A model generated the notes under the pieces. The model saw nothing but the letters and a program-made list of their open reading frames with translations. It did not search any database and was not told the DNA's origin. From assembly GCF_000160755.1 (NCBI RefSeq), contig NZ_GG668576.1:175884-239883 (forward strand): a stretch of DNA of 64,000 nucleotides. The letters are read 5' to 3'. Source of the stretch: Proteus mirabilis ATCC 29906 (GTDB lineage Bacteria > Pseudomonadota > Gammaproteobacteria > Enterobacterales > Enterobacteriaceae). This document shows positions 36,498-52,444 of the stretch, piece by piece (the stretch's first letter is position 1; each line of letters opens with the position of its first letter). The translations under genes were made by a program, and so were the position numbers.

Positions 36498-37082
36498 CTA
36501 CAGTACTCTGTTTTCTACACCCGCAAATTCATTATCATTTTCAACAATCTGATCTTTTGCTTCCACAATGAACGTAATACGAGAAGATATATACCCTGGC
36601 TTTGCGCGAAGATTATCTTTTTTGACATAATTTATAAAGAAATTAAAATAAGCAGTACCACTTTCATCAATAGTTTTAGTGAATGTATTTTTCTGATTTA
36701 AATCAATAGGATTATTTTCATCATCAATTAATTGGAATGTCACATTATCACTTGCTTCAGAGCCTGTTACATCGTTGATAAGGTAACCATTATTAAAATC
36801 AATATTTGTATTATCAATACGTAAAGTTATTTTAGTATTCTTTTCTGAACAAAGACTAAAAACTATAGCAATTCTTTTAGAATATCTGTCATTAGCTAAG
36901 GTTCCTGCATAATTGCTAGGGAAAGAATCAGGACGTATACTTCTAACTTTAGTGCTATTAGGTATGTCAAAGCTACAACTTATTGGCGCTGGTAAACTAC
37001 CTCTTCTATTATCAGATAAAGCAATAAAAGGGAAGTATAGTAATAGTAGAGGAATTAAAAATGTTATATTTATTGATTTCAT
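36498..37082 (-). CDS. Minor fimbrial protein or adhesin-like subunit
   Basis: A 194-residue exported protein (signal peptide about residues 1-22, ending ALS) and the last gene of the fimbrial operon, 41 bases past the usher. Two cysteines (SCSFDIP and SLCSEKN) could form a pilin-type disulfide. The beta-strand-rich sequence and its position suggest a minor or tip subunit. The C-terminus (ENDNEFAGVENRVL) extends beyond the usual pilin end. I cannot assign a receptor. Confidence 0.65.
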   Translation of the reverse strand: MKSINITFLIPLLLLYFPFIALSDNRRGSLPAPISCSFDIPNSTKVRSIRPDSFPSNYAGTLANDRYSKRIAIVFSLCSEKNTKITLRIDNTNIDFNNGYLINDVTGSEASDNVTFQLIDDENNPIDLNQKNTFTKTIDESGTAYFNFFINYVKKDNLRAKPGYISSRITFIVEAKDQIVENDNEFAGVENRVL

Positions 37083-37123: not shown

Positions 37124-39538
37124 TTATTGGCAATAAATTTGTTTCTTAATAATTGAATTATTTTTACTTTCATTTTTTACGTTATAATGGAAGAAACATT
37201 GTTGCTCCTCTGTATCTCCCCATTTTACTTGTACCGTTCCGCTTTCTTTTATTCCGGAGAGGAATATTCTATTGTGGTCATAGACAGAATCACTAGAAAT
37301 GAGATTATTATTATCATCAAATGCCATTACATTGGCAGCAAAAGGAATTGGTGTATTTGAGGTAAATAAAACATTATAGCCCCTATTTATAGGGAAATTG
37401 ATTTTTGCTACCGCACCTAAAGTAGGTACGATGATTTTACTTTGAGTTTTAGTATTACTAAACTCAGGTAACGAATTTATGTTTAGTCCAATAGTATTTT
37501 TACGATATGGCATGATGTGCGGTAATATTAAATTACCGTTATTGTCTGTAATGGCTTGTGAAGAACGATTAGTTTTAATTCCGGCAATGCCATTCGTATT
37601 TACAATAGCAAAAGTATTACCTAAGTCAGGTGCCAAAGTTACTCCACTTTGATGTAACACTATTGCACCATTAATCCCTAATCTTAAATTGGTTTTATTA
37701 TTAGACGATTTAGTTGTATTAATAGAATAAGATTGATATCTCCCCTTATACTGAGTATTTACTGAAGTATGATAGCCAGCATTTGGGTGGCTAAAATCCC
37801 GTCGGTAATTAATAGAATAGCCTAAGCGATAGTGTTCTAATAAACTTCCACCTATAGTCGTACTATTTATATAACCTTTATTGTTTGGATGATAATCAAA
37901 TTGATTGCTTACCCAATGATAGGATTGAGAGCTATTTGTTAGTGGAATATTAAAATTTAAAGAAAAATGATTGTCATTATAATATTTTTCATTTTTATAT
38001 TGATATTTTATACTATAATTCATTTTTTTTATAGAAGATGATAGAGAAGTATTGATTGTAAAGTCATTTTTTCTTTTGGCATAAGAATTTTGATGATAAC
38101 CAATAGAAAATGTCCCGAAAGATTTAATCGGTTGAAAGAGAGAAATTGTATAGCTATTTTTTATGTTGTCTGTTTGACTTTTTCTAATGCTAACACTATC
38201 AGATTTTATTGATTGATAATGGCTAGAAGATATATTTAAAGAAGTACCAATATTGCTCCATCGTTTATTATAGCGCAACTGGTATTTTAATAGATTATTG
38301 TGTTCAAAATAACTAATATCACTGGCTACTCCCCCCCAGCGTCCTAAATCTAATGATAATCCTGAAAAGAAAGTATTGCTATTCAGCTTCTTTCTAATTG
38401 CACCATAAGCGGTTATTTTTTGATTAATACCATAGGAGAACTCACCCAGTAAAAAAATAGGGTTATTATTTTGATTATTAAACTGGTTATATCTATCATA
38501 AGAATATCCAGAAATAAAATTATATTGATAACGACCTTTTTTTAATTGGTTTGGCATTGTAGTAAAGTAATGAGTACTTTTTCTTATACGTCCATCTGCT
38601 TCTTTTATTTCTAATACCAATTCATTGCTACCTATAACAGGTAGATCGTTTAAAATAAAAGGCCCAGGAGGAACAATAGTTTCATAAATGGTTCTTCCTT
38701 GTTGTTTCACTTTAATTTCAGCATGAGATTCTGCAATCTCTTCTATGATAGGACTATTCATATAGAGATCATTACCAGAGAGCAAATTACTAGATATAAG
38801 TTGAAATCCAATTAATTTATCTGTTGATAACATTCTACTGGTTGGTCGAAATTCCCCCACATTAAGCGTTGCCAACAGCGTATTTAATTGATGATAAGCA
38901 TATAATGAGTATAGCTTAAATTGCTGTTGCTTATCCGTATGATGATAATAACTTTTACTACGTACTCGCCAAGCACCTAAGTTAGCACCTGAGTTAAAAC
39001 TGATTTTGTGTTCTATCTTATTTTGATTGTTATATTTGCCAAAATAAGAATATGAGCTAAACAAAGCAGGGACACCATCATCCCATAAAACTTGGCTAGC
39101 AAGCATATTTTTTTTATTATCTAAGGCTTTTTGTGGAATAGTTAAATATAATGATTGCGAGGAGAAATTATATTTAAAATCAATATTGTAATCGCTTAAT
39201 AACAAATCAGAACTTAAATCAATAGGAATATTATAAAAAGATGGATCAATATTTAAACGAATTAAATCATTAACATTAATCCTTGGTGTTAATATACCGT
39301 CTTTATTTTCATAATATAAAATAATGGTTTCTTTTTTATTTTCGTTGATATAAATATTTGTTGAGTAATAACCATCAGGATGTTCATTATTTAATAACTT
39401 GCCGATGGTTTTATTATCAATATTTGACAATACACTTTTATATAGAGAATGAATATTATTGTTAGCAATAGAAAAGAAAGGGTATGCATTTAATATCAAT
39501 AGCAAAGATGTTTTTAGTCTAAAACTTATCTTACTCAT
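37124..39538 (-). CDS. Fimbrial outer membrane usher protein (operon 1)
   Basis: A FimD/PapC-family usher of 804 residues that assembles and secretes pilin subunits across the outer membrane. The signal peptide ends near FFSIA (about residue 26). N-terminal pilin-binding, beta-barrel and plug domains follow (NDLPVIGSNELVLEIKEADG is the conserved usher block near residue 325), then the C-terminal domains with the cysteine pair EQQC and IYC. The ATG at 39538 is chosen because it overlaps the chaperone stop by eight bases. The gene is very AT-rich, like many acquired fimbrial genes. Confidence 0.88.
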   Translation of the reverse strand: MSKISFRLKTSLLLILNAYPFFSIANNNIHSLYKSVLSNIDNKTIGKLLNNEHPDGYYSTNIYINENKKETIILYYENKDGILTPRINVNDLIRLNIDPSFYNIPIDLSSDLLLSDYNIDFKYNFSSQSLYLTIPQKALDNKKNMLASQVLWDDGVPALFSSYSYFGKYNNQNKIEHKISFNSGANLGAWRVRSKSYYHHTDKQQQFKLYSLYAYHQLNTLLATLNVGEFRPTSRMLSTDKLIGFQLISSNLLSGNDLYMNSPIIEEIAESHAEIKVKQQGRTIYETIVPPGPFILNDLPVIGSNELVLEIKEADGRIRKSTHYFTTMPNQLKKGRYQYNFISGYSYDRYNQFNNQNNNPIFLLGEFSYGINQKITAYGAIRKKLNSNTFFSGLSLDLGRWGGVASDISYFEHNNLLKYQLRYNKRWSNIGTSLNISSSHYQSIKSDSVSIRKSQTDNIKNSYTISLFQPIKSFGTFSIGYHQNSYAKRKNDFTINTSLSSSIKKMNYSIKYQYKNEKYYNDNHFSLNFNIPLTNSSQSYHWVSNQFDYHPNNKGYINSTTIGGSLLEHYRLGYSINYRRDFSHPNAGYHTSVNTQYKGRYQSYSINTTKSSNNKTNLRLGINGAIVLHQSGVTLAPDLGNTFAIVNTNGIAGIKTNRSSQAITDNNGNLILPHIMPYRKNTIGLNINSLPEFSNTKTQSKIIVPTLGAVAKINFPINRGYNVLFTSNTPIPFAANVMAFDDNNNLISSDSVYDHNRIFLSGIKESGTVQVKWGDTEEQQCFFHYNVKNESKNNSIIKKQIYCQ

Positions 39539-40232
39539 AAATAAGTTCCTTTGGGGTTGCAATGATAGTCTGCTCATACTCATCGACTCTCTTCCAATGT
39601 ACTTTTTTATCTTTAATATTTTTAGTTATTTTTTTATTTTTTATACTGTAATTTTTAAATGGCGATAGGGTTATTCGCTCATTTAATATATCAATGTTAT
39701 CTACCTTTGCTTCTGCTATGGTAATAAAATAAGGAGTGGGGTTGTTTATTTTAATAAAATTTTCATCATTAATAAAGAAATTAATATCTTTATTATCACT
39801 TTTGTTAATAATATCGCTAGGTGTATAGAAAAGATTATATATTGAGTTTAAAGAGATAAGAAGCAAGTTTTTATCAGCCATCTCATCATCTATAACTGGA
39901 ACTAATTTTATATTTACTCTATATACAGATTCTTGGTTGATTTCTTTTATATCATCCGTTTTGATAATTTTTAATGTAAAATTTTCATTGGGTGCTAATC
40001 TTATTAAACTAGGAGAAATGATAAATGGTGCCTCACTATTATCTTCTTTGTTATAGTGTGATACCCAACTTTGAATAATATAGGTTTTTTGTTCGCTTTT
40101 ATTTCTTATGTCAAATAGAATTTCCTTATCTTGTTCTTTATAAAAAAATCTATCCTTATTAATTTGAATAGAAGCATAACATGAGAATGTAAAGACAAAT
40201 GATATTATATAAACAATATATTTTTTAATCAT
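39531..40232 (-). CDS. Periplasmic fimbrial chaperone (operon 1)
   Basis: A 233-residue PapD/FimC-family chaperone with a signal peptide ending near SCYA (residue 20). It donates a beta-strand to pilin subunits and delivers them to the usher. The sequence KTYIIQSWVSHYN and FIISPSLIRLAPNE match the conserved strands that bind subunits. It ends inside the start of the usher gene. Just upstream is an attenuator hairpin, and its start-codon region is one edge of the tandem duplication. Confidence 0.88.
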   Translation of the reverse strand: MIKKYIVYIISFVFTFSCYASIQINKDRFFYKEQDKEILFDIRNKSEQKTYIIQSWVSHYNKEDNSEAPFIISPSLIRLAPNENFTLKIIKTDDIKEINQESVYRVNIKLVPVIDDEMADKNLLLISLNSIYNLFYTPSDIINKSDNKDINFFINDENFIKINNPTPYFITIAEAKVDNIDILNERITLSPFKNYSIKNKKITKNIKDKKVHWKRVDEYEQTIIATPKELIYE

Positions 40233-40286
40233 ATGTTTTTTAATTAACCATTAGTTAAGTTATTTATTATATTAATCCATAAATAA

Positions 40287-40312
40287 AAAGCCGGTATTTC
40301 CCCGGCTTTATA
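40287..40312 (-). terminator. Attenuator between major subunit 1 and chaperone
   Basis: AAAGCCGG pairs with CCGGCTTT and on the minus strand is followed by TTATTTATGG. It lies between the pilin and the chaperone genes, where a partial terminator would keep pilin mRNA in excess. Confidence 0.75.
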
Positions 40313-40357
40313 TTGGGTTAAAAATTAAAGCAGAATTATATTTAATTTTGGCCTTTT

Positions 40358-40903
40358 TTATTGGATATCATCAGTGACGTAAGCATCAAGAGATAAGGCT
40401 GCATTGAAAGCACCTGCGGTAACAGCATCATCAATCGATTCTGGTCTATCATATTTTAATAAAAATTCTAAGCTACCACGTTCACCGGCAACCTCCGAAG
40501 AAAATGTACGTTCTGAATTCTCACCATTAAGTGGAACAAGTTCACCTGTAGAACGCAATAATGCTACTCGAGCATTGGTATCATTTTCTGTCGAACCAGT
40601 ATTCATTAAATGAGTAGCGTGTTGTCGTGCAACAACTACTTTGACTTTTCTATCTCTTGCTTGATTAGTACAGCCAGAAAAATCCACACTAAATCGTTTT
40701 TCAGGAGTAAGTAGTAAAGAATCAACGTAAGCATTATCCAATTGAATTGGAGCAATATCTTGAACGACACAAGTTAGTTTCTCGTCAATTACTCTGCCTT
40801 GGATATCTATATTATAACCACCAAGGAAAATCTGTTGTGCAATAGCTTGTGTTGATAAAGAAAGTGTAGATAGAATTAATAGTGAAAATAATGATTTTTT
40901 CAT
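40358..40903 (-). CDS. Major fimbrial subunit, copy 1
   Basis: A 181-residue pilin with signal peptide MKKSLFSLLILSTLSLSTQA. The disulfide cysteines are visible in KLTCVV and SGCTNQ. It is the gene nearest the chaperone, usher and minor subunit, so it is likely the main subunit of operon 1. The start at 40903 is chosen because GGA lies eight bases upstream; an ATG four codons earlier has none. A second copy, roughly 85 percent identical in protein, lies upstream at 41789. Differences concentrate after the signal peptide, in the middle and C-terminal half. Confidence 0.85.
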   Translation of the reverse strand: MKKSLFSLLILSTLSLSTQAIAQQIFLGGYNIDIQGRVIDEKLTCVVQDIAPIQLDNAYVDSLLLTPEKRFSVDFSGCTNQARDRKVKVVVARQHATHLMNTGSTENDTNARVALLRSTGELVPLNGENSERTFSSEVAGERGSLEFLLKYDRPESIDDAVTAGAFNAALSLDAYVTDDIQ

Positions 40904-41118
40904 TTTAAAGTCCATTTAAGTATTAATTGTAGTTACAAATTTGCTCATAATTAAGAGCGAGATAATAATATTTTTTTACGTGAAATTTGACAAGTTATAT
41001 ATAATTATGATTAGTATTATTTTGTTAAATGATTAGCGAAATATGTTTTTTTTGGGTTGGTTTGTTAGATTTAAATTTTAAATTATAGGTAAAAGATGAA
41101 GGATTTATCTATTGAAGG

Positions 41119-41135
41119 TTTTTTTTAAAAAAAAA
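41119..41135. repeat. T8A9 homopolymer pair upstream of pilin copy 1
   Basis: Eight T followed by nine A, about 220 bases upstream of pilin 1. The same tract occurs upstream of pilin 2, so it is part of the duplicated unit. Such tracts can vary in length by slipped-strand mispairing. Confidence 0.5.
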
Positions 41136-41173
41136 CAGAGGTTTTATTTGTGTAATTATATTTATAAATAAAT

Positions 41174-41197
41174 AGCACCTTGATTAAAGGTGCCATT
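41174..41197 (-). terminator. Terminator after truncated azoR
   Basis: GGCACCTTT and AAGGTGC form a stem around a four-base loop, followed on the minus strand by ATTTATTT. It insulates the azoR remnant from pilin gene 1. Confidence 0.7.
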
Positions 41198-41207
41198 AGG
41201 TATATTT

Positions 41208-41652
41208 TTATTTTATCATTATTTCTTTATTAATAATTAAATTTATTTCTTTTTGTGCTTGAACATGTGACTGTTGTGCATATTCTTCGCCTAGCGCAGT
41301 ATCCTCGGTGAGAATAAACTGTACATTATTAATACCAATAAATGATAAAAATTGTGTTAGATATGGAATAATTAAATCAGAGGGTTGTCCTTTATGGATC
41401 CCACCACGACTCGTTAATACAATAACTTGCTTATCTTCAAGTAATCCGACTGACCCTGTTTCAGTATATTTAAAAGTTTCGCCTGCACGCGCAATAAAAT
41501 CAATAGAATGTTTTAACTGAGAGAAGATGGAGAAATTATATATAGCCGTATCTTTGCCAAAAGCAAATAATATGGCTTGATCTAAAACGGGAATGGGATC
41601 TTTTGCCAGATCACGTAGGGTAATGAGGTCATTTTGATGGTGTTTTTGCCAA
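41208..41652 (-). pseudogene. azoR: Truncated azoR copy between the pilin genes
   Basis: This is the 3' part of azoR (ending INLIINKEIMIK), copied with the tandem duplication. The first codons are missing: the frame begins abruptly at 41652 (WQKHHQND in the intact gene) and fuses to sequence from the chaperone start region. Inside it, 93 bases (31 codons) present in the intact gene are deleted, in frame. The intact gene has ACATAG at both ends of that segment, which suggests deletion by recombination or slippage between the repeats. No in-frame start codon with a ribosome binding site is seen, so it is probably not translated. Confidence 0.8.
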
Positions 41653-41715
41653 ATTTTAATCTTATGTTTTTTAATTAATCATTAGTTAAGTTATTTATTG
41701 TATTAACCTATAAAT

Positions 41716-41742
41716 AAAAAGCCGGTATTTCCCCGACTTTTT
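41716..41742 (-). terminator. Attenuator-like hairpin after pilin copy 2
   Basis: AAAAAGCCGG pairs with CCGACTTTTT with one mismatch. It is the duplicate of the attenuator after copy 1. Confidence 0.65.
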
Positions 41743-41788
41743 ATTGGGTTGAAAATTAAAGCAGAATTATATTTAGTTTTGGCTGTTT

Positions 41789-42331
41789 TTATTGGATATT
41801 ATCAGTGATGTAAGCATCAAGAGATAAGGTAGCCTTGAAAGCACCTGCGGTAACAGCATCAATCGATTCAGGTCTATCATATTTTAATGAAAATACTAAT
41901 CTACCACTATCACCGGCAACATCCGAATAAAATGTACGTTGTTCTCGCTCACCATTAAGTGGAACAAGTTCACCTGTAGAACCCAATAATGCTACTCGAG
42001 CATTGGTATCATTTGCTGTCGAACTAGTATTCATTAAATGAGTAGTGTTTTGTCGTGCAACAACTATTTTGACTTTTCTTGCTCTTTCTTGATTAGTACA
42101 GCCAGAAAAATCCACATTAAATTGTTTTTCAGGAGTAAGCAGTAAAGAATCAACGTAAGCATCATCCAATTGAATTGGAGCAACATCTTGAACGACACAA
42201 GTTAGTTTCTCGTCAATTACTCTGCCTTGGATATCTATATTATAACCACCAAGGTGAATCTGTTGTGCAATAGCTTGTGTTGATAAAGCAAGTGTAGATA
42301 GAATTAATAGTGAAAATAATGATTTTTTCAT
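41789..42331 (-). CDS. Major fimbrial subunit, copy 2
   Basis: A 180-residue pilin with the same signal peptide as copy 1 (one change, STLALSTQA) and the same disulfide cysteines. It has about 28 amino-acid differences from copy 1, mostly in exposed-looking stretches such as RQNTTHLMNTSSTAND and REQRTFYSDVAGDSG. Both reading frames are intact and both have the upstream GGACTTTAAAATG start region, so both are probably expressed. It may be an alternative subunit or a sequence reservoir for gene conversion. The start at 42331 follows the same reasoning as copy 1. Confidence 0.83.
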   Translation of the reverse strand: MKKSLFSLLILSTLALSTQAIAQQIHLGGYNIDIQGRVIDEKLTCVVQDVAPIQLDDAYVDSLLLTPEKQFNVDFSGCTNQERARKVKIVVARQNTTHLMNTSSTANDTNARVALLGSTGELVPLNGEREQRTFYSDVAGDSGRLVFSLKYDRPESIDAVTAGAFKATLSLDAYITDNIQ

Positions 42332-42543
42332 TTTAAAGTCCATTTAAGTATTAATTGTAGTTACAAATTTGCTCATAATTAAGAGCGAGATAATGATATT
42401 TATTTACGTGAAGCTTGACAACTTATATGTAATTACAATAAATATTTATTTATTAAATAATTAGGAGTAGATACTTTATATGGTGGGTAAGCTAGATTTA
42501 AATATCAAAGTATGGGTAAATAGTGAAGTATTTATCTGTTGAG

Positions 42544-42560
42544 TTTTTTTTAAAAAAAAA
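42544..42560. repeat. T8A9 homopolymer pair upstream of pilin copy 2
   Basis: The same eight T plus nine A tract as upstream of copy 1, located about 215 bases before the pilin 2 start. Confidence 0.5.
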
Positions 42561-42596
42561 CAGAGGTTTTTTTTGTGTAATTATATTTATAAATAA

Positions 42597-42621
42597 ATAG
42601 CACCTTAGTTAAAGGTGCCAT
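42597..42621 (-). terminator. Terminator after azoR
   Basis: GGCACCTTT and AAGGTGC form a hairpin just past the azoR stop, followed by ATTTATTT on the minus strand. Confidence 0.75.
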
Positions 42622-42632
42622 TAGATATATTT

Positions 42633-43253
42633 TTATTTTATCATTATTTCTTTATTAATTATTAAATCTATTTCTTTTTGTGCTTGAGCATGTGACTGCT
42701 GGGCATATTCTTCGCCTAGCGCAGTACCCTCGGTGAGAATAAACTGTACATTATTAATACCAATAAATGATAAAAATTGTGTTAGATATGGAATAATTAA
42801 ATCAGAGGGTTGTCCTTTATGGATCCCACCACGACTCGTTAATACAATAACTTGCTTATCTTCAAGTAATCCGACTGACCCTGTTTCAGTATATTTAAAA
42901 GTTTCGCCTGCACGCGCAATAAAATCGATATAGTGTTTTAATTGAGAAGGGATGGAGAAATTATACATAGGCGCCGTGATCACAATAATATCATGTGCTT
43001 TTAATTCATTAATTAATGTATCAGAGAGTGCTCTAGCGGCTTTTTGTTGTTCCGATAACATAGCCGTATCTTTGCCAAAAGCAAATAATGTGGCTTGATC
43101 TAAAACAGGAATGGGATCTTTTGCCAGATCACGTAGGGTAATGAGATCATTTTGATGATGCTTTTGCCAATTTTCTATTAGATAGTCAGCCATTTTATTG
43201 CTGTGCGAGTAATTTTCTAAAATACTGGATTTTAGTACAAGAAGCTTGTTCAT
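42633..43253 (-). CDS. azoR: FMN-dependent NADH-azoreductase AzoR
   Basis: AzoR is a flavodoxin-like oxidoreductase that reduces quinones and azo compounds with NADH. The 206-residue protein starts MNKLLVLKSSILENYSHSNK, with the FMN-binding region SSILENYSHSNK and the conserved APMYNFSIPSQLKHYIDFIARAG part near residue 95 and LTSRGGIH near 145. The ATG at 43253 is chosen from GAGAG upstream and family length (E. coli AzoR has 201 residues). It is divergent from hrpA, as in E. coli. A truncated copy lies at 41208. Confidence 0.9.
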   Translation of the reverse strand: MNKLLVLKSSILENYSHSNKMADYLIENWQKHHQNDLITLRDLAKDPIPVLDQATLFAFGKDTAMLSEQQKAARALSDTLINELKAHDIIVITAPMYNFSIPSQLKHYIDFIARAGETFKYTETGSVGLLEDKQVIVLTSRGGIHKGQPSDLIIPYLTQFLSFIGINNVQFILTEGTALGEEYAQQSHAQAQKEIDLIINKEIMIK

Positions 43254-43474
43254 TTTATTCTCTCGGTAAATATCTGTTATGTTTATATAGACCAAATTTT
43301 ATCTTATCTGAAAAATTTCACACCATAATCGTTTGAATATGCTATTCAAATTTATTGATTATATATATTCATAGAATAAGAAAATTCATCAACCCTTTAT
43401 GTGCAAATTGGCGGTTGTGATATCATGGCAACAATATTATTTGGTTAAATAAACCTCAAAAAGGATAACAAAAG

Positions 43475-47429: not shown

Positions 47430-47747
47430 TTATTGATAATGTACTGAAATGGTAAATTGATCATTAATATTGTCAGCTAAAACCACTTTATTACTATCTA
47501 AGATAAAAGATGTTTTTGCGCTATTTTTTATTGAAATAGCAGTGTTCTTTTTAATATTCAATATACTATTAGCGTTTTTTATTATTGATGGACAGTTTGA
47601 TATCTTCAATATAACTTCTTGGTTTTCTTTTGATTTATTATTATCCATTATGTATTCACAGCTAGTTTCATAGATATAATAAGCATTTACAGAAAACACA
47701 GGTAGTAATATTAATAACATGATAATAGGAGTTAAATGTTTTTTCAT
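47430..47747 (-). CDS. Small exported protein at the end of fimbrial operon 2
   Basis: A 105-residue protein with a signal peptide (MKKHLTPIIMLLILLPVFSV, cleavage near residue 22). Two cysteines (TSCEYI and SNCPSI) could form a disulfide. It starts 12 bases after the adhesin-like gene ends and is the last gene of the operon. I do not recognise a family. It is too short for a normal pilin, and may be an assembly or surface accessory factor. Confidence 0.5.
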   Translation of the reverse strand: MKKHLTPIIMLLILLPVFSVNAYYIYETSCEYIMDNNKSKENQEVILKISNCPSIIKNANSILNIKKNTAISIKNSAKTSFILDSNKVVLADNINDQFTISVHYQ

Positions 47748-47759
47748 AGGGGAAATAAA

Positions 47760-48764
47760 TTATTTATATTCTAAGTTTACATTAATTTGTGATGTTACCT
47801 TGCCAGGCAAGATGTTTTCACTCATTTTCACATAACCTACTGAAAAAGGAAAAGTATATTCCGTCGAAGGTGTTCTATGAACGCTATTATAAATAACATT
47901 ACCTAAATAATATTTATTATCATTATATTTAATTGATAAACCTACCCCAGAAGGGGTGCCATTATTAAGAAGTGTTAATAAATTAGTATTTCTACTTTTA
48001 TAAATAGCAGGTGCATCAAGCTTTAATGAAACTAATGTATCTTGGTTACAAATAACACCAATAGAAAAATGTGTTTCATTAGCGGGTATTGAATCACTTA
48101 AACTGTTTTTTTCTACAGGCGCTAATTCAATATTAGGTTGTTCAATATTAAGTTCGCAAACTTTATTCTGAGGCTTCTCAATAATCAAATTATTATAAGT
48201 AAATTTTTTATTATCTAATGTATAGACAAGAAAATCATCCATAACAAATATGTCGCTCAGAGGTTCTAGAACGATTTCGCTTATTTTTATTAATTGAATA
48301 TATAGTCTTGGCCAACTATCAGTACAATATATATTTTTATATCCTTCTTTTCTAGTTTGAGCATTACAGACATTTGCATATTCAGGTGTTACATTAAACT
48401 CATCGCCTACTAAGTTAAAAGGTGTTTTATTCGCTGATATCTTAAAGCCAACTCCTGGAATATTTGTTTTAAAAATATCATCTTTATAATGCCTTGCATT
48501 AATAATTAATTTTAGATCAACTTTATCTTTACAATGAAGAATTGACGTAGATAGAGCGGCATCAGTAAAACTCATTTCTGCGATAGGTTGGCCAATATCG
48601 ACACCTAAATCAATATCACTAGCTTTAAATCTAATATTATGTACTGGAATAAACCCATTGTCTGTTATATCGTCATAAACGCAATTGTTACTAAAGCTTT
48701 TATATGGTTCATCAGAATAACAATGGAATGAGAGTAAATAAATTAAAATAATAATGTATTTCAT
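47760..48764 (-). CDS. Two-domain fimbrial adhesin-like protein
   Basis: A 334-residue exported protein (signal peptide about 1-16, ending CYS) in the position of a tip adhesin, nine bases after the usher gene. The N-terminal half (about 17-195) has its own cysteines (SNNCVYDD, LHCKD, NVCNAQ, YCTDS) and could be a receptor-binding lectin domain. The C-terminal half (from about 200: KVCELNIEQPNIELAPVEKN and IGVICNQDTLVSLKLDAP) has a pilin-domain pattern with a disulfide. This two-domain layout is that of tip adhesins such as FimH. The receptor is unknown. Confidence 0.7.
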   Translation of the reverse strand: MKYIIILIYLLSFHCYSDEPYKSFSNNCVYDDITDNGFIPVHNIRFKASDIDLGVDIGQPIAEMSFTDAALSTSILHCKDKVDLKLIINARHYKDDIFKTNIPGVGFKISANKTPFNLVGDEFNVTPEYANVCNAQTRKEGYKNIYCTDSWPRLYIQLIKISEIVLEPLSDIFVMDDFLVYTLDNKKFTYNNLIIEKPQNKVCELNIEQPNIELAPVEKNSLSDSIPANETHFSIGVICNQDTLVSLKLDAPAIYKSRNTNLLTLLNNGTPSGVGLSIKYNDNKYYLGNVIYNSVHRTPSTEYTFPFSVGYVKMSENILPGKVTSQINVNLEYK

Positions 48765-48773
48765 TTTTATATA

Positions 48774-51167
48774 TTATTCCTCTTTAATGCAATTTACAGT
48801 TTTAAAATAAATTCTATTTTGTTTTTCATTATCATTTAATTGATAGTTAAATGAGCACTGTTGTTTGTTGGAACTTCCCCATTTTACAAAAATCTTTCCT
48901 GAAATAGGTAAATTAGAAATATATAATTTATTATCTTCATTTACATAGGATATATCGGATAGGGTGCCATCAGAATTTTTCACATAGGCTGTTGCACCAA
49001 AAGGAATGTTTTGGTGAAATGTAAATAAAGCACTTTCTCCTTTAGTTACCTTAATATTTTTTGCAATAATAGCTCCTTTAGTAGGAATTAAATGATAGCT
49101 ATAATTATCAATATTATAATTATAATCTAATGATTTTGCATCAATGTGGAACTTATTGTTATGATAACTAGTTAAATTAGGAATGATTAAATAACCTCTT
49201 CGGTCTGATTCTATTGTTGGCTTTCCTATTATTTTTACTTTCTTAGCACCTGCAAAATTTAGGATAGCAAAACTATCATTTAGATCTTGGGCTAACGTTA
49301 TTCCTCCATTATGAAACACAATGCCGCCATTGAGTCCATAGCCTAAAGAATAACTATCTTTATTAAATCGAGAGTTTATATTTAGTTTGGCTATCCTACT
49401 TAAATAATTAATTTTCATTGATGAATCTAAGCGTTCTTTATTATTTTTAGAAAAATCAAGGTTATAATTTAACCGATTATTTTCTAATGTATTTCCACTA
49501 AATGAAATATTCTCATGAAAATATTTTTCTCTATTATCATAATTGATCCTTGCTGTTGCCCAATGAGAGAGATCTTGACCAATAGGATAATTTAAAAAAA
49601 TTGATAATTGATTATTATTGCTGTACTGATCTTTGCTATTCTCTAGCTCTAATGAATAGGAAAGTTTTTTATAATTTGAACTAGTATTAATAAAAAGTCG
49701 TTGGCTTTTTTCTTTTGAGTGATAATAGGTTGCAATATTATACCCCAACGTTAAAGCAATATTATTATTTAATGATTGTGAAAAGTGAAATCCTAAATCA
49801 TATTTCTTATATTCTTTATTTACAGCATAATTCTCTTTAAATCTAAAGTAGAATGATGAGTTTAATGAAATAGTTGTATTTTCCATAGAAAATACTTTTT
49901 GGTAATTAATCTTATTGGACTGATATTGTTGATGATATTTCTCTCTTATCCAAGCGTTTTCTAATGAGACTATACCCAGGATATTTAATCCTAGGGTATT
50001 TCCAATAAGTGCTTTAATATCATCTCCTTTTTTTTCAGCTCCTATCATTGTCGTTAAATAATTGCTCACTCCATAGCTTAAATTCAATTGAGTTAATAGT
50101 TCTTTTTTCTTATTAGAAGGAAACTGTCTTTTTTGAGGATTATTTACTAAACCCATAGTATAGTAATAATTCCATTGGTTCTTTCTTAATAAATACTGTG
50201 AAGAATAATTCCAGATTTTCTTCTTTCTTACTTCGCCATTTTCTTCTTTTATAATTAATACTAATTCACCATTTGTACCTAAAGAGGGAAGGTTATTAAG
50301 AGTAAATGGCCCAGGTGGTACAGATGTGCTATATAGTGTTTCTCCATTTTGCTCAATGCTAACTTCTGCATAGGTATAGGCGGTTTCACTTATAATGGGT
50401 GCATAACCTACTAGGGAGCCATCTTTCATTGCATTATCGCTATTGATTTGCACGCCTAGTATTTTATAAGTGTTTAAGTTAGGAGAATAAGCATAGAAAT
50501 CACCCATAGTTAAAATGGAATTAATATTTCTAAGTGTCCTATATACATATTGCTGGTTTATAGAAAAAGAATTATTATTATTATAGTTTAGATCTTGACG
50601 ATAACGCCATGCAAATAAATTAATTCCATTATATAGCTGTAGGTTATGTATGTGTTGTCCATTTAAACTATTTTGTTTATAATAATGGCCTTGATAGTTG
50701 TATTTAATGAAAGCAGCATTATCACCATCATCCAATTTTTCTTTGGAATATGAAGTGTTTTTTTCTATCGCAATTAATGGTACTTTAAAGTAAATCGACT
50801 GTTTGTTAATTTCTAATTTTATATTAAATAATTTTTTTAATAAATCATAGTCAACGATATCGTTGTCTAACTTATTTTTTAAAGGCTCGTAATAATTGGT
50901 GTTTATTCCCCATTGTTTTAAATCAAATAGAGTTATTATTGGAGTTAAGTTATTGTTTTTGTTTTTAAATGATATCTCAGCATTTTGTTTTTTATTGTTA
51001 TTTATATAAATTGTTATGTTATAGGTTCCTTCGAGAAAATTTTCATTAAGCAAGAGTGAAAAATCAATATTTCCATTGTGGTTTTCAATTGCTTGTAAGT
51101 AAAGTGCATTTGCATATACATAGGGCGTAAATAATAAGAGTAAAGAAATAGGAGATAACTTTATCAT
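48774..51167 (-). CDS. Fimbrial outer membrane usher protein (operon 2)
   Basis: A 797-residue FimD/PapC-family usher with signal peptide (about residues 1-18). Conserved usher blocks are visible: GPFTLNNLPSLGTNGELVLI near residue 290 and the C-terminal cysteine pair QQCSFNYQL with VNCIKEE. It follows the chaperone by eight bases. Sequence similarity to the operon 1 usher is visible (the GPF-LNDLP/NNLP region) but the two are clearly different genes. Composition is strongly AT-rich. Confidence 0.88.
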   Translation of the reverse strand: MIKLSPISLLLLFTPYVYANALYLQAIENHNGNIDFSLLLNENFLEGTYNITIYINNNKKQNAEISFKNKNNNLTPIITLFDLKQWGINTNYYEPLKNKLDNDIVDYDLLKKLFNIKLEINKQSIYFKVPLIAIEKNTSYSKEKLDDGDNAAFIKYNYQGHYYKQNSLNGQHIHNLQLYNGINLFAWRYRQDLNYNNNNSFSINQQYVYRTLRNINSILTMGDFYAYSPNLNTYKILGVQINSDNAMKDGSLVGYAPIISETAYTYAEVSIEQNGETLYSTSVPPGPFTLNNLPSLGTNGELVLIIKEENGEVRKKKIWNYSSQYLLRKNQWNYYYTMGLVNNPQKRQFPSNKKKELLTQLNLSYGVSNYLTTMIGAEKKGDDIKALIGNTLGLNILGIVSLENAWIREKYHQQYQSNKINYQKVFSMENTTISLNSSFYFRFKENYAVNKEYKKYDLGFHFSQSLNNNIALTLGYNIATYYHSKEKSQRLFINTSSNYKKLSYSLELENSKDQYSNNNQLSIFLNYPIGQDLSHWATARINYDNREKYFHENISFSGNTLENNRLNYNLDFSKNNKERLDSSMKINYLSRIAKLNINSRFNKDSYSLGYGLNGGIVFHNGGITLAQDLNDSFAILNFAGAKKVKIIGKPTIESDRRGYLIIPNLTSYHNNKFHIDAKSLDYNYNIDNYSYHLIPTKGAIIAKNIKVTKGESALFTFHQNIPFGATAYVKNSDGTLSDISYVNEDNKLYISNLPISGKIFVKWGSSNKQQCSFNYQLNDNEKQNRIYFKTVNCIKEE

Positions 51168-51175
51168 AATTAATA

Positions 51176-51850
51176 CTATTCGCTATTTTTTATGTTGATA
51201 TTAACTTCATTACCAAAATCATTTATATAGCTCCAGCCTACTTTAGCTGTACCAAAATGATTTTTTCCTATATTAATTTCACTAAAAGGGGATAGCATGA
51301 CTGAGATCTCTTTTTTTTCCCCATTAGAAAAAATATTTATAATAGTGAAGTAGTATTCAGAGTTGTTTTTTATTATCATTTCTTTTTTATTATTTATAGA
51401 AAAAATAATTTTTTTTGTCGCTTCTTCAACTGTTTCTGTTAAGCCATGTGGTCGGTAAAATAATTTAAACACTGACTTAATTGATATATGAATACTATTA
51501 TGTTTTGATTCAGCTATAGGGATCGCTTTGCTATTTATATAAAAAAGACTTTCACGATCTGTTTGAGCTATTGATGTGATTTTGGCAATTCGCAAAATTG
51601 CAGATTGTTCTTTATTTAATTTAAATAAAGGTGGGGTAATCATAAAAGGTGTATTTTTATCATTTTCATCCTTTGTGATCCAGCTTTGTATTAAATAATC
51701 AGTAGCGGAGTTTTTATTTTTTATATTAATAATAATATCATTATCGTCTTCATTATAGATAAACCGTGTTCCACTATAAATTACATTTGCTTGTGTAAAA
51801 AAAGTAGAACACAGAATTATGATAAATAAAATATAAACATTATACTTCAT
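51176..51850 (-). CDS. Periplasmic fimbrial chaperone (operon 2)
   Basis: A 224-residue PapD-like chaperone with a signal peptide ending near FTQA (residue 21). The strand TDYLIQSWITKDENDKN and FMITPPLFKLNKEQS are the conserved subunit-binding parts, followed by the second domain. It is followed after eight bases by the usher gene. Very AT-rich. Confidence 0.87.
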   Translation of the reverse strand: MKYNVYILFIIILCSTFFTQANVIYSGTRFIYNEDDNDIIINIKNKNSATDYLIQSWITKDENDKNTPFMITPPLFKLNKEQSAILRIAKITSIAQTDRESLFYINSKAIPIAESKHNSIHISIKSVFKLFYRPHGLTETVEEATKKIIFSINNKKEMIIKNNSEYYFTIINIFSNGEKKEISVMLSPFSEINIGKNHFGTAKVGWSYINDFGNEVNINIKNSE

Positions 51851-51877
51851 AATAAAATAATCCTGTGTTTTTTTTAA

Positions 51878-52444
51878 TTAAGAATATTTAACGGTAAAAT
51901 TTACTGATGTATTGACAGTTCCTGATGTTGGATTTGGAAGATAACTCGCGTAATTGGCATGGAATTTATAAGTTGCTGTTTTATTTTCAATTCTCTTAGT
52001 TATTGCTTGGTTACCATTTAAATGAATAATATTTTTATTACCTTCATCACTACGAATGAAAATTCCTACTCCTTTAGCACTATTATTTGTGATGCTTTTA
52101 TTCTTCATAATTTTATTTTCACCGGCTAAATCAGTGCCGTTAAATGTTAATGTTGCATTATTATTGCCACAATCTAATAGTTTAATTTCAAAATTACTAC
52201 CTGTACTGCTTTTGGCATTGGCCCAATCTTTATCTAAGACTATTTCCGATTTATTAATTGTAGGCAAAGTGATAGGAGAACTAGGGCTATCTATATTGCA
52301 GGATGTTGATATTACTGTTCCACTAAAATTAATAATATTGTTATTTTTCTTTTCTGTTGTTTTGCTATTATCTGCTAATACATTCATGCTAGAAGAGATA
52401 ACTAATAATGCAGATAGTAATCTGATATGATTTTTTATTTTCAT
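51878..52444 (-). CDS. Major fimbrial subunit (operon 2)
   Basis: A 188-residue pilin with a signal peptide ending near NVLA (residue 24). The pilin domain starts with INFSGTVISTSCNIDSPSSP and has the second cysteine in LLDCGNNNATLTF. It ends VNFTVKYS, with the penultimate tyrosine common to type 1-like pilins. It is the first gene of the operon, with the chaperone following after 27 bases. Upstream lies a long palindrome (52519-52569). Confidence 0.87.
   Translation of the reverse strand: MKIKNHIRLLSALLVISSSMNVLADNSKTTEKKNNNIINFSGTVISTSCNIDSPSSPITLPTINKSEIVLDKDWANAKSSTGSNFEIKLLDCGNNNATLTFNGTDLAGENKIMKNKSITNNSAKGVGIFIRSDEGNKNIIHLNGNQAITKRIENKTATYKFHANYASYLPNPTSGTVNTSVNFTVKYS

Follow-up and report, generated by a model that had tools for sequence, protein, structure and literature searches.

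Two intact, diverged pilin genes around an azoR relic in a tandemly repeated block of a Proteus mirabilis chaperone-usher operon

Why does a fimbrial operon with one chaperone and one usher gene carry two different pilin genes, with a piece of an azoreductase gene lodged between them? The question is raised by a stretch of 64,000 nucleotides (nt) from Proteus mirabilis ATCC 29906 (contig NZ_GG668576.1, positions 175,884 to 239,883), hereafter the window, within which positions are counted. On its minus strand the genes run in the order azoR, pilin A, azoR relic, pilin B, chaperone, usher and minor pilin. The sequence supports a tandem duplication that left a relic of azoR between two intact, diverged pilin genes, and we favour, as fairly probable, the reading that two functional pilins serve one chaperone-usher line, copy B being the variable one. 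An earlier note on this DNA had described the duplication and had interpreted the divergence of the pilins as diversifying selection or gene conversion, perhaps in an antigenic-variation reservoir.

The repeated block and its azoR relic

A block of about 1.43 kb, composed of the 3’ part of azoR, a leader, a pilin gene and a hairpin, is present twice, head to tail, as the earlier note had stated. Direct repeats covering 40223-43174 bear this out, as does the alignment of the copies; the repeats have a spacing of 1425-1431, which becomes 1518 upstream of a deletion, and extend from the chaperone start to about azoR codon 29. At the join (chaperone start ATGATTAAAAAAT, junction AAGATTAAAATTTGGC, azoR GAAAATTGGC) azoR is fused to the chaperone start region and the former chaperone ATG now reads AAG, both as had been proposed. 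The AATTTT microhomology proposed along with them is not a clean one: the crossover lies inside a common A-tract of ~4 bp plus one more T.

The window genome (4.03 Mb) was compared with P. mirabilis H110 and H63, which it matches at 99% across 40100-43300. H110 and H63 differ in only 4 alignment columns in 19.2 kb and were therefore counted as a single lineage, such that the three records of this species (window strain, H110, H63) amount to effectively two lineages. The second copy of the block is present in 3/3 records, each with two pilin copies whose frames are open, and the junction segment 41649-41788 shows 0/140 differences between the window and both other strains. H110 and H63 are filed in PLSDB as plasmids (NZ_OL790812.1 and NZ_OL790811.1; 4.09 and 4.08 Mb), and these records carry the chromosomal P. 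mirabilis region studied here. No further P. mirabilis strain turned up among the genome contigs searched, which gave three other species, or among viral contigs.

The azoR copy had been called functionless, which agrees with the AAG at the junction, the loss of 93 bp and the kind of change it has accumulated. Its frame is otherwise open, and no open reading frame (ORF) of at least 60 amino acids (aa) with an ATG, GTG or TTG start is listed there. The 93 bp correspond to the exact spacing of two CTATGT repeats in the intact azoR, pointing to a typical slip deletion. An outgroup of 15 further Proteus azoR genes, at least 8 of which had to agree, was used to polarise the changes. It placed 6 replacement and 3 silent changes on the branch common to the two relics, whereas the intact azoR, counting shared and single-strain changes, carried 2 replacement and 5 silent ones, with 3 ambiguous sites. 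On account of this 6:3 ratio the relic looks unconstrained. A raw ratio of replacement to silent rates (dN/dS) of 0.19 had looked low, and the idea of a constrained azoR copy was rejected because the polarised ratio fits no constraint. Between azoR and its relic we also found the change-free stretch of almost 200 bases that had been noticed before, an identical run of 199 nt (p 0.0002, 20,000 shuffles).

Divergence of the pilins between copies, strains and species

The two pilins differ at 28/184 aligned residues, with one additional codon in B, in line with the ~28/180 first estimated. Along the copy alignment, mismatches number 19/441 in the azoR part (plus the 93-nt gap), 40/289 in the azoR-pilin spacer, 36/555 in the pilin (plus 3 gap columns; signal 1/81, mature part 35/474) and 11/135 in the pilin 3’ region. 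Divergence peaks in the promoter core (31/119; 42399-42517 versus about 40970-41090) and is lowest in the signal sequence and in the stretch of leader beside the start codon. Between the azoR stop and codon 30 of the pilin the changes load both copies equally, 18 falling on A and 17 on B, with 8 left unassigned. The pilin had been described as visibly more diverged than azoR; at the level of total nucleotide divergence the difference is not significant (Fisher p 0.16), whereas the ratio of replacement to silent changes does set the two apart, at 32:4 in the pilin versus 8:11 in azoR (p 0.0004).

Between strains (window versus H110, with identical counts from H63), pilin B has changed at 13/558 positions, compared with 1/555 in pilin A, 0/585 in the minor pilin, 4/702 in the chaperone, 2/2460 in the usher (long ORF), 10/621 in azoR and 30/3897 in hrpA. 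The density in pilin B exceeds that of eight neighbouring genes (58/11,748; p 1.5e-5), and so does its replacement:silent ratio (11.3:1.7 versus 17:41 in those eight; Fisher p 3.6e-4). Of the 13 changes, six fall within 7 nt and two more are adjacent; when the 6-base and 2-base clusters are counted as single events, p is 0.0064 for the replacement:silent ratio and 0.0175 when silent and non-coding changes nearby are the reference. Pilin B is thus, on solid evidence, a hot spot between the two lineages.

The excess is also seen between species. In 19 other Proteus genomes, each from a different species, a chaperone and an usher gene occupy this place; the azoR-hrpA region is present, whole or in part, in 20/20 genomes when that of the window is included, with a pilin match in 19/20. 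No second pilin was found at the locus in these 19 genomes (E<=1e-3), 18 having one match and one (L072) none, and in the 18 single-pilin species the spacing, read off coordinates, is too small for another full pilin gene. P. myxofaciens has an additional pilin match (30%) on a different contig. The usher is 66-83% identical to that of P. mirabilis at the protein level in P. penneri, P. faecis and P. myxofaciens, and 47-48% elsewhere. Compared with P. penneri and P. faecis, DNA identity is 54-57% in the mature pilin, 90-96% in the last 60 nt of the leader and the signal sequence, 86% in the usher, 83% in the chaperone and 75-76% in the minor pilin. As the strain and the between-species comparisons both show the excess, no other part of the operon changes as fast as the pilin on either time scale.

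Variation of this kind might also have been imported, with pilin B alleles swapped between strains as the conserved leader and flanking operon undergo ordinary homologous recombination, bringing in old variation. The edges of the variable segment are sharp (13/558 in pilin B versus 0/125 in the 3’ region and 2/295 upstream), in P. penneri and P. faecis a conserved leader is followed by very different mature pilins, and the operon type varies among Proteus species at this one locus, which suggests exchange. Imports, however, should bring silent differences, and only 1.7/13 are silent; nor is there a donor allele among the P. mirabilis records compared. We regard such swapping as possible, though less than probable.

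At the syntenic locus (records L054-L072), a P. mirabilis-like operon occurs in four species, P. mirabilis included, and the other type in 16 genomes. In P. penneri ATCC 33519 (L055:7024-7230) and P. faecis TJ1636 (L054:4124-4255), azoR is reduced to its last part beside the operon. Descent of these two species from a duplicated ancestor was considered and dropped: their remnants match azoR versus the relic at 7:8 sites (7 neither) and 5:9 sites (8 neither), a comparison that says little, as part of the alignment falls where the remnants have no azoR. Over 149 bases, their hrpA-azoR spacer is 92.6% identical to that of P. mirabilis and about 81% to that of another Proteus genome, a sign that the whole segment may have been exchanged between species.

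Selection, conversion and the role of copy B

Counted by the Nei-Gojobori method between A and B, the mature pilin has dN 0.091 and dS 0.039 (dN/dS 2.3), with a bootstrap range of 0.006 to 0.094 for dN-dS and a Fisher p of 0.097 for replacement versus silent change. In a codon likelihood analysis (self-written GY94 model, F3x4, single start) the four pilin sequences gave an omega of 1.39, with a likelihood ratio of 0.43 (p 0.51 against 1); by partition, omega was 1.39 for all codons, 1.28 for the mature part, 1.37 for codons 71 to the end and 1.66 for the B-B pair (p 0.51-0.63). Omega in the pilin is therefore about 1 or somewhat higher, far from the constraint of its neighbours, and an excess over 1 is not proven. 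The pilin is, on firm evidence, free of the purifying constraint seen in neighbouring genes. Of the diversifying selection inferred by the earlier note, the loss of constraint and the hot spot in pilin B stand, and a dN/dS above one is not established; with omega at 1.28-1.66, we rejected positive selection as a proven result.

As a history, the sequence shows the azoR(3’)-leader-pilin-hairpin segment of a chaperone-usher operon doubled head to tail, by way of a short A-tract, within the P. mirabilis lineage; the dead azoR copy, minus its 93 bp, presumably serves as a spacer only. Because each pilin has its own leader, start and hairpin, and the terminator-like hairpin of azoR lies between them, each pilin gene is probably transcribed on its own, and both would feed the single chaperone-usher pair downstream of B. 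Having two subunit genes would loosen constraint, such that A is held constant and the mature part of B changes at or above the neutral rate. Constant A and variable B describe a pattern between two lineages, for which immune or phage pressure, or simple redundancy, could be the cause.

Several results weigh against this history. Omega in the codon model is not significantly above one, and in binomial tests neither the copies (p 0.054) nor the strains (p 0.39) depart significantly from neutrality, the strain replacement:silent ratio alone thus not being above it. Differences between A and B show no clear avoidance of positions conserved in relatives (10/69 versus 17/85, p 0.40), and an i,i+2 excess (p 0.046) and a depletion of hydrophobic residues (p 0.10) in the mature part are weak; a pattern of change on a surface face was dropped on these three values. 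The leader is not strongly conserved in P. myxofaciens (66-68% identity; signal 87-89%, mature part 52-54%), and a promoter scan returned 15 matches in total versus 20.0 in shuffles. The strain comparison rests on only two independent P. mirabilis lineages, and the variation of pilin B could reflect relaxed constraint on a redundant copy.

If that last point is carried further, pilin A does the work while pilin B drifts toward decay with neutral variation, as the omega near 1, the strain ratio compatible with neutrality, the 13 changes in B versus 1 in A and the unconstrained evolution of the adjoining azoR relic would all allow. Against this, pilin B is intact in 3/3 records and lies immediately 5’ of the chaperone. 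Its replacement changes (11/423) outnumber local silent and non-coding change (8/2153; p 4.5e-5), also when clusters are collapsed (6/423, p 0.0175), and the residues that can be polarised match relatives about equally in the two copies (5 sites in B and 4 in A, with 19/28 assigned to neither). Drift of pilin B as a redundant copy seems to us rather unlikely.

Gene conversion at the pilin had also been proposed. At one azoR site (42795/41370) the two copies agree within each strain, with T in the window strain and C in H110; this is a sign of conversion, resting on one silent transition within the 199-nt run. In the pilin the pattern is missing, as 0/39 variable sites conflict with a simple A|B tree. 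At 10/13 of the strain differences in pilin B, H110 B equals A, and these ten sites fit equally well a conversion of H110 B by A or a change in the B of the window strain. Conversion between the copies may thus happen at times and is not needed for the differences between the pilins, so that the sign of it is confined to the one azoR site and no pilin site calls for it.

An antigenic-variation reservoir, in which one pilin donates sequence and rewrites the other by gene conversion in the manner of silent pilin cassettes, would make more of the same observations: six of the sites at which H110 B may have been converted crowd into 7 nt, the footprint expected of a short conversion tract, azoR is homogenised within strains at the site above, and the long identical azoR run could be read likewise. 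The ten sites have their equal alternative, however, and homogenisation is seen at no pilin site. The copies differ at just 1 base of the 60 nt upstream of the start codon, and neither has lost that codon. A protein search (E<=1e-3) found no third close pilin copy in the window genome, H110 or H63, although very short fragments could escape it; the window genome yielded the two close copies and one 29% paralogue. A leader and start codon in both copies and the lack of a third argue against a silent reservoir. Judged from the sequence, the locus looks like a gene duplication of an ordinary sort and is probably not a silent cassette, and we consider the reservoir advanced by the earlier note very improbable.

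Within our preferred reading of two functional pilins, a division of labour can be imagined, with a conserved A under its own diverged promoter, B as a separately controlled, fast-changing coat subunit, and A-to-B conversion tracts adding variation. We think this unlikely in its full form; if true, the fimbrial surface could change without risk to assembly. If both pilins are assembled, the locus would be a natural system for asking whether duplication of a major subunit frees its surface to change, the dead azoR fragment providing a neutral clock. In practice, a marker or antigen based on this pilin may differ among P. mirabilis strains even where the operon is otherwise near-identical, as in the one lineage pair compared.

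Leaders, neighbouring genes and known systems

Each leader contains a candidate promoter, that of pilin B having the same relative place as in copy A (Table 1). With 31/119 positions differing in the promoter core, more than between azoR and its relic (19/438), one of the two candidates may be inactive, or the two pilins may be regulated differently. A 16-bp near-palindrome (GCTCTTAATTATGAGC) occurs only at these two pilins across the window genome, one mismatch being allowed, and could be a regulator site. The hairpin after pilin A was missing from the terminator scan, which listed only the one after pilin B. The copied azoR hairpin follows pilin A and precedes the candidate promoter of pilin B.

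Table 1. Positions of genes, block copies and candidate control elements in the window
Feature	Position	Strand	Basis
Pilin A, 184 aa	41789..42343	-	ORF list
Pilin B, 185 aa	40358..40915	-	ORF list
Copy A of block (3’ part of intact azoR, leader, pilin A, hairpin)	41654..43170	-	Repeats and alignment
Copy B of block (azoR relic, leader, pilin B, hairpin)	40226..41653	-	Repeats and alignment
azoR, intact, flavodoxin-fold FMN-dependent NADH-azoreductase family	42633..43253	-	PF02525 E 3.2e-48
azoR relic, without codons 1-28 and 31 internal codons	41208..41651	-	Alignment, junction, shared derived changes
Candidate promoter of pilin A, TTGTCA-17-TATCAT	42393..42421	-	Consensus match only
Candidate promoter of pilin B, TTGTCA-17-TATTAT	40965..40993	-	Consensus match only
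Near-palindrome, pilin A leader	42371..42386	.	Genome scan
Near-palindrome, pilin B leader	40943..40958	.	Genome scan
Hairpin after pilin A (attenuator or terminator)	41713..41745	-	Fold of 41700-41790, -17.4 kcal/mol, z -2.68
Hairpin with T tail after pilin B (putative attenuator preceding chaperone)	40287..40309	-	Terminator scan; fold z -2.15
azoR terminator-like hairpin retained in copy B	41171..41197	-	Terminator scan; counterpart 42596-42622
Periplasmic pilus chaperone	39531..40232	-	PF00345 E 4.6e-23
Outer membrane usher	37124..39541	-	PF00577 E 1.8e-91 (scored on longer ORF reaching 39583)
Minor or tip pilin, 194 aa, single Fimbrial domain	36498..37082	-	PF00419 E 3.8e-7, 30.9 bits (cut-off 25.6)

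The linked chaperone and usher genes exceed the cut-offs of PF00345, PF02753, PF00577, PF13954 and PF13953. The intact azoR matches NCBIfam azoreductase models, yet under their cut-offs. On the far side of hrpA (47430-52444) lies a second fimbria operon, with genes for a pilin, a chaperone, an usher, a 334-aa possible adhesin and a 105-aa protein; its pilin and 334-aa protein score below the cut-off of fimbrial models, and its chaperone and usher were named by eye. The operon studied here may be the same as a five-gene operon of strain HI4320.

As to family, pilin B matches PF00419 with E 5.5e-5 and 23.9 bits (cut-off 25.6), and pilin A has no Pfam match at E<=0.1. A profile of five pilins matches the type-1 fimbrial A chain 6y7s (E 2.4e-7) and FimF 2jmr (E 0.0023) in the PDB. 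All five have a signal-like N-terminus, in which 23/26 residues are invariant (the signal peptide being judged by eye), and share invariant C49 and C82. An AlphaFold model from the five sequences had a mean predicted local distance difference test score (pLDDT) of 53.9 and was not used for fold search or structure mapping. In these profile matches, and in the chaperone and usher genes that follow, the pilins resemble those of the type 1-like FimA group, from which the present operon differs by its two complete pilin genes, both missing the Pfam cut-off.

P. mirabilis also has tandem flagellin genes, flaA and flaB, of which flaB is normally silent and hybrids have been seen; they resemble the pilins as tandem genes for a structural protein in the same species, and differ in that silencing and hybrids are not shown for the pilins. 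Type IV pili and chaperone-usher pili are unrelated, and the likeness to pilE/pilS of Neisseria lies in a pilin gene plus a homologous copy on one chromosome. The pilS copies, up to 19 of them, are incomplete, being without promoter and ribosome-binding site (PMC4534519), unlike the two complete genes found here. Among the titles and starts of abstracts listed in our literature search, none describes this pilin duplication; neither these nor the passages of PMC4009794 gave anything on P. mirabilis flagellin hybrids. Variation of pilin copy number in related bacteria is already in print. A pilin subunit gene is duplicated in Yersinia ruckeri CC1, as here, the kind of pilus being unstated in the passages on it in PMC10174560, and P. 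mirabilis Pr2921 has additional copies of ucaA, which belongs to a different fimbria (PMC4919397); neither those passages nor that text give an analysis of divergence.

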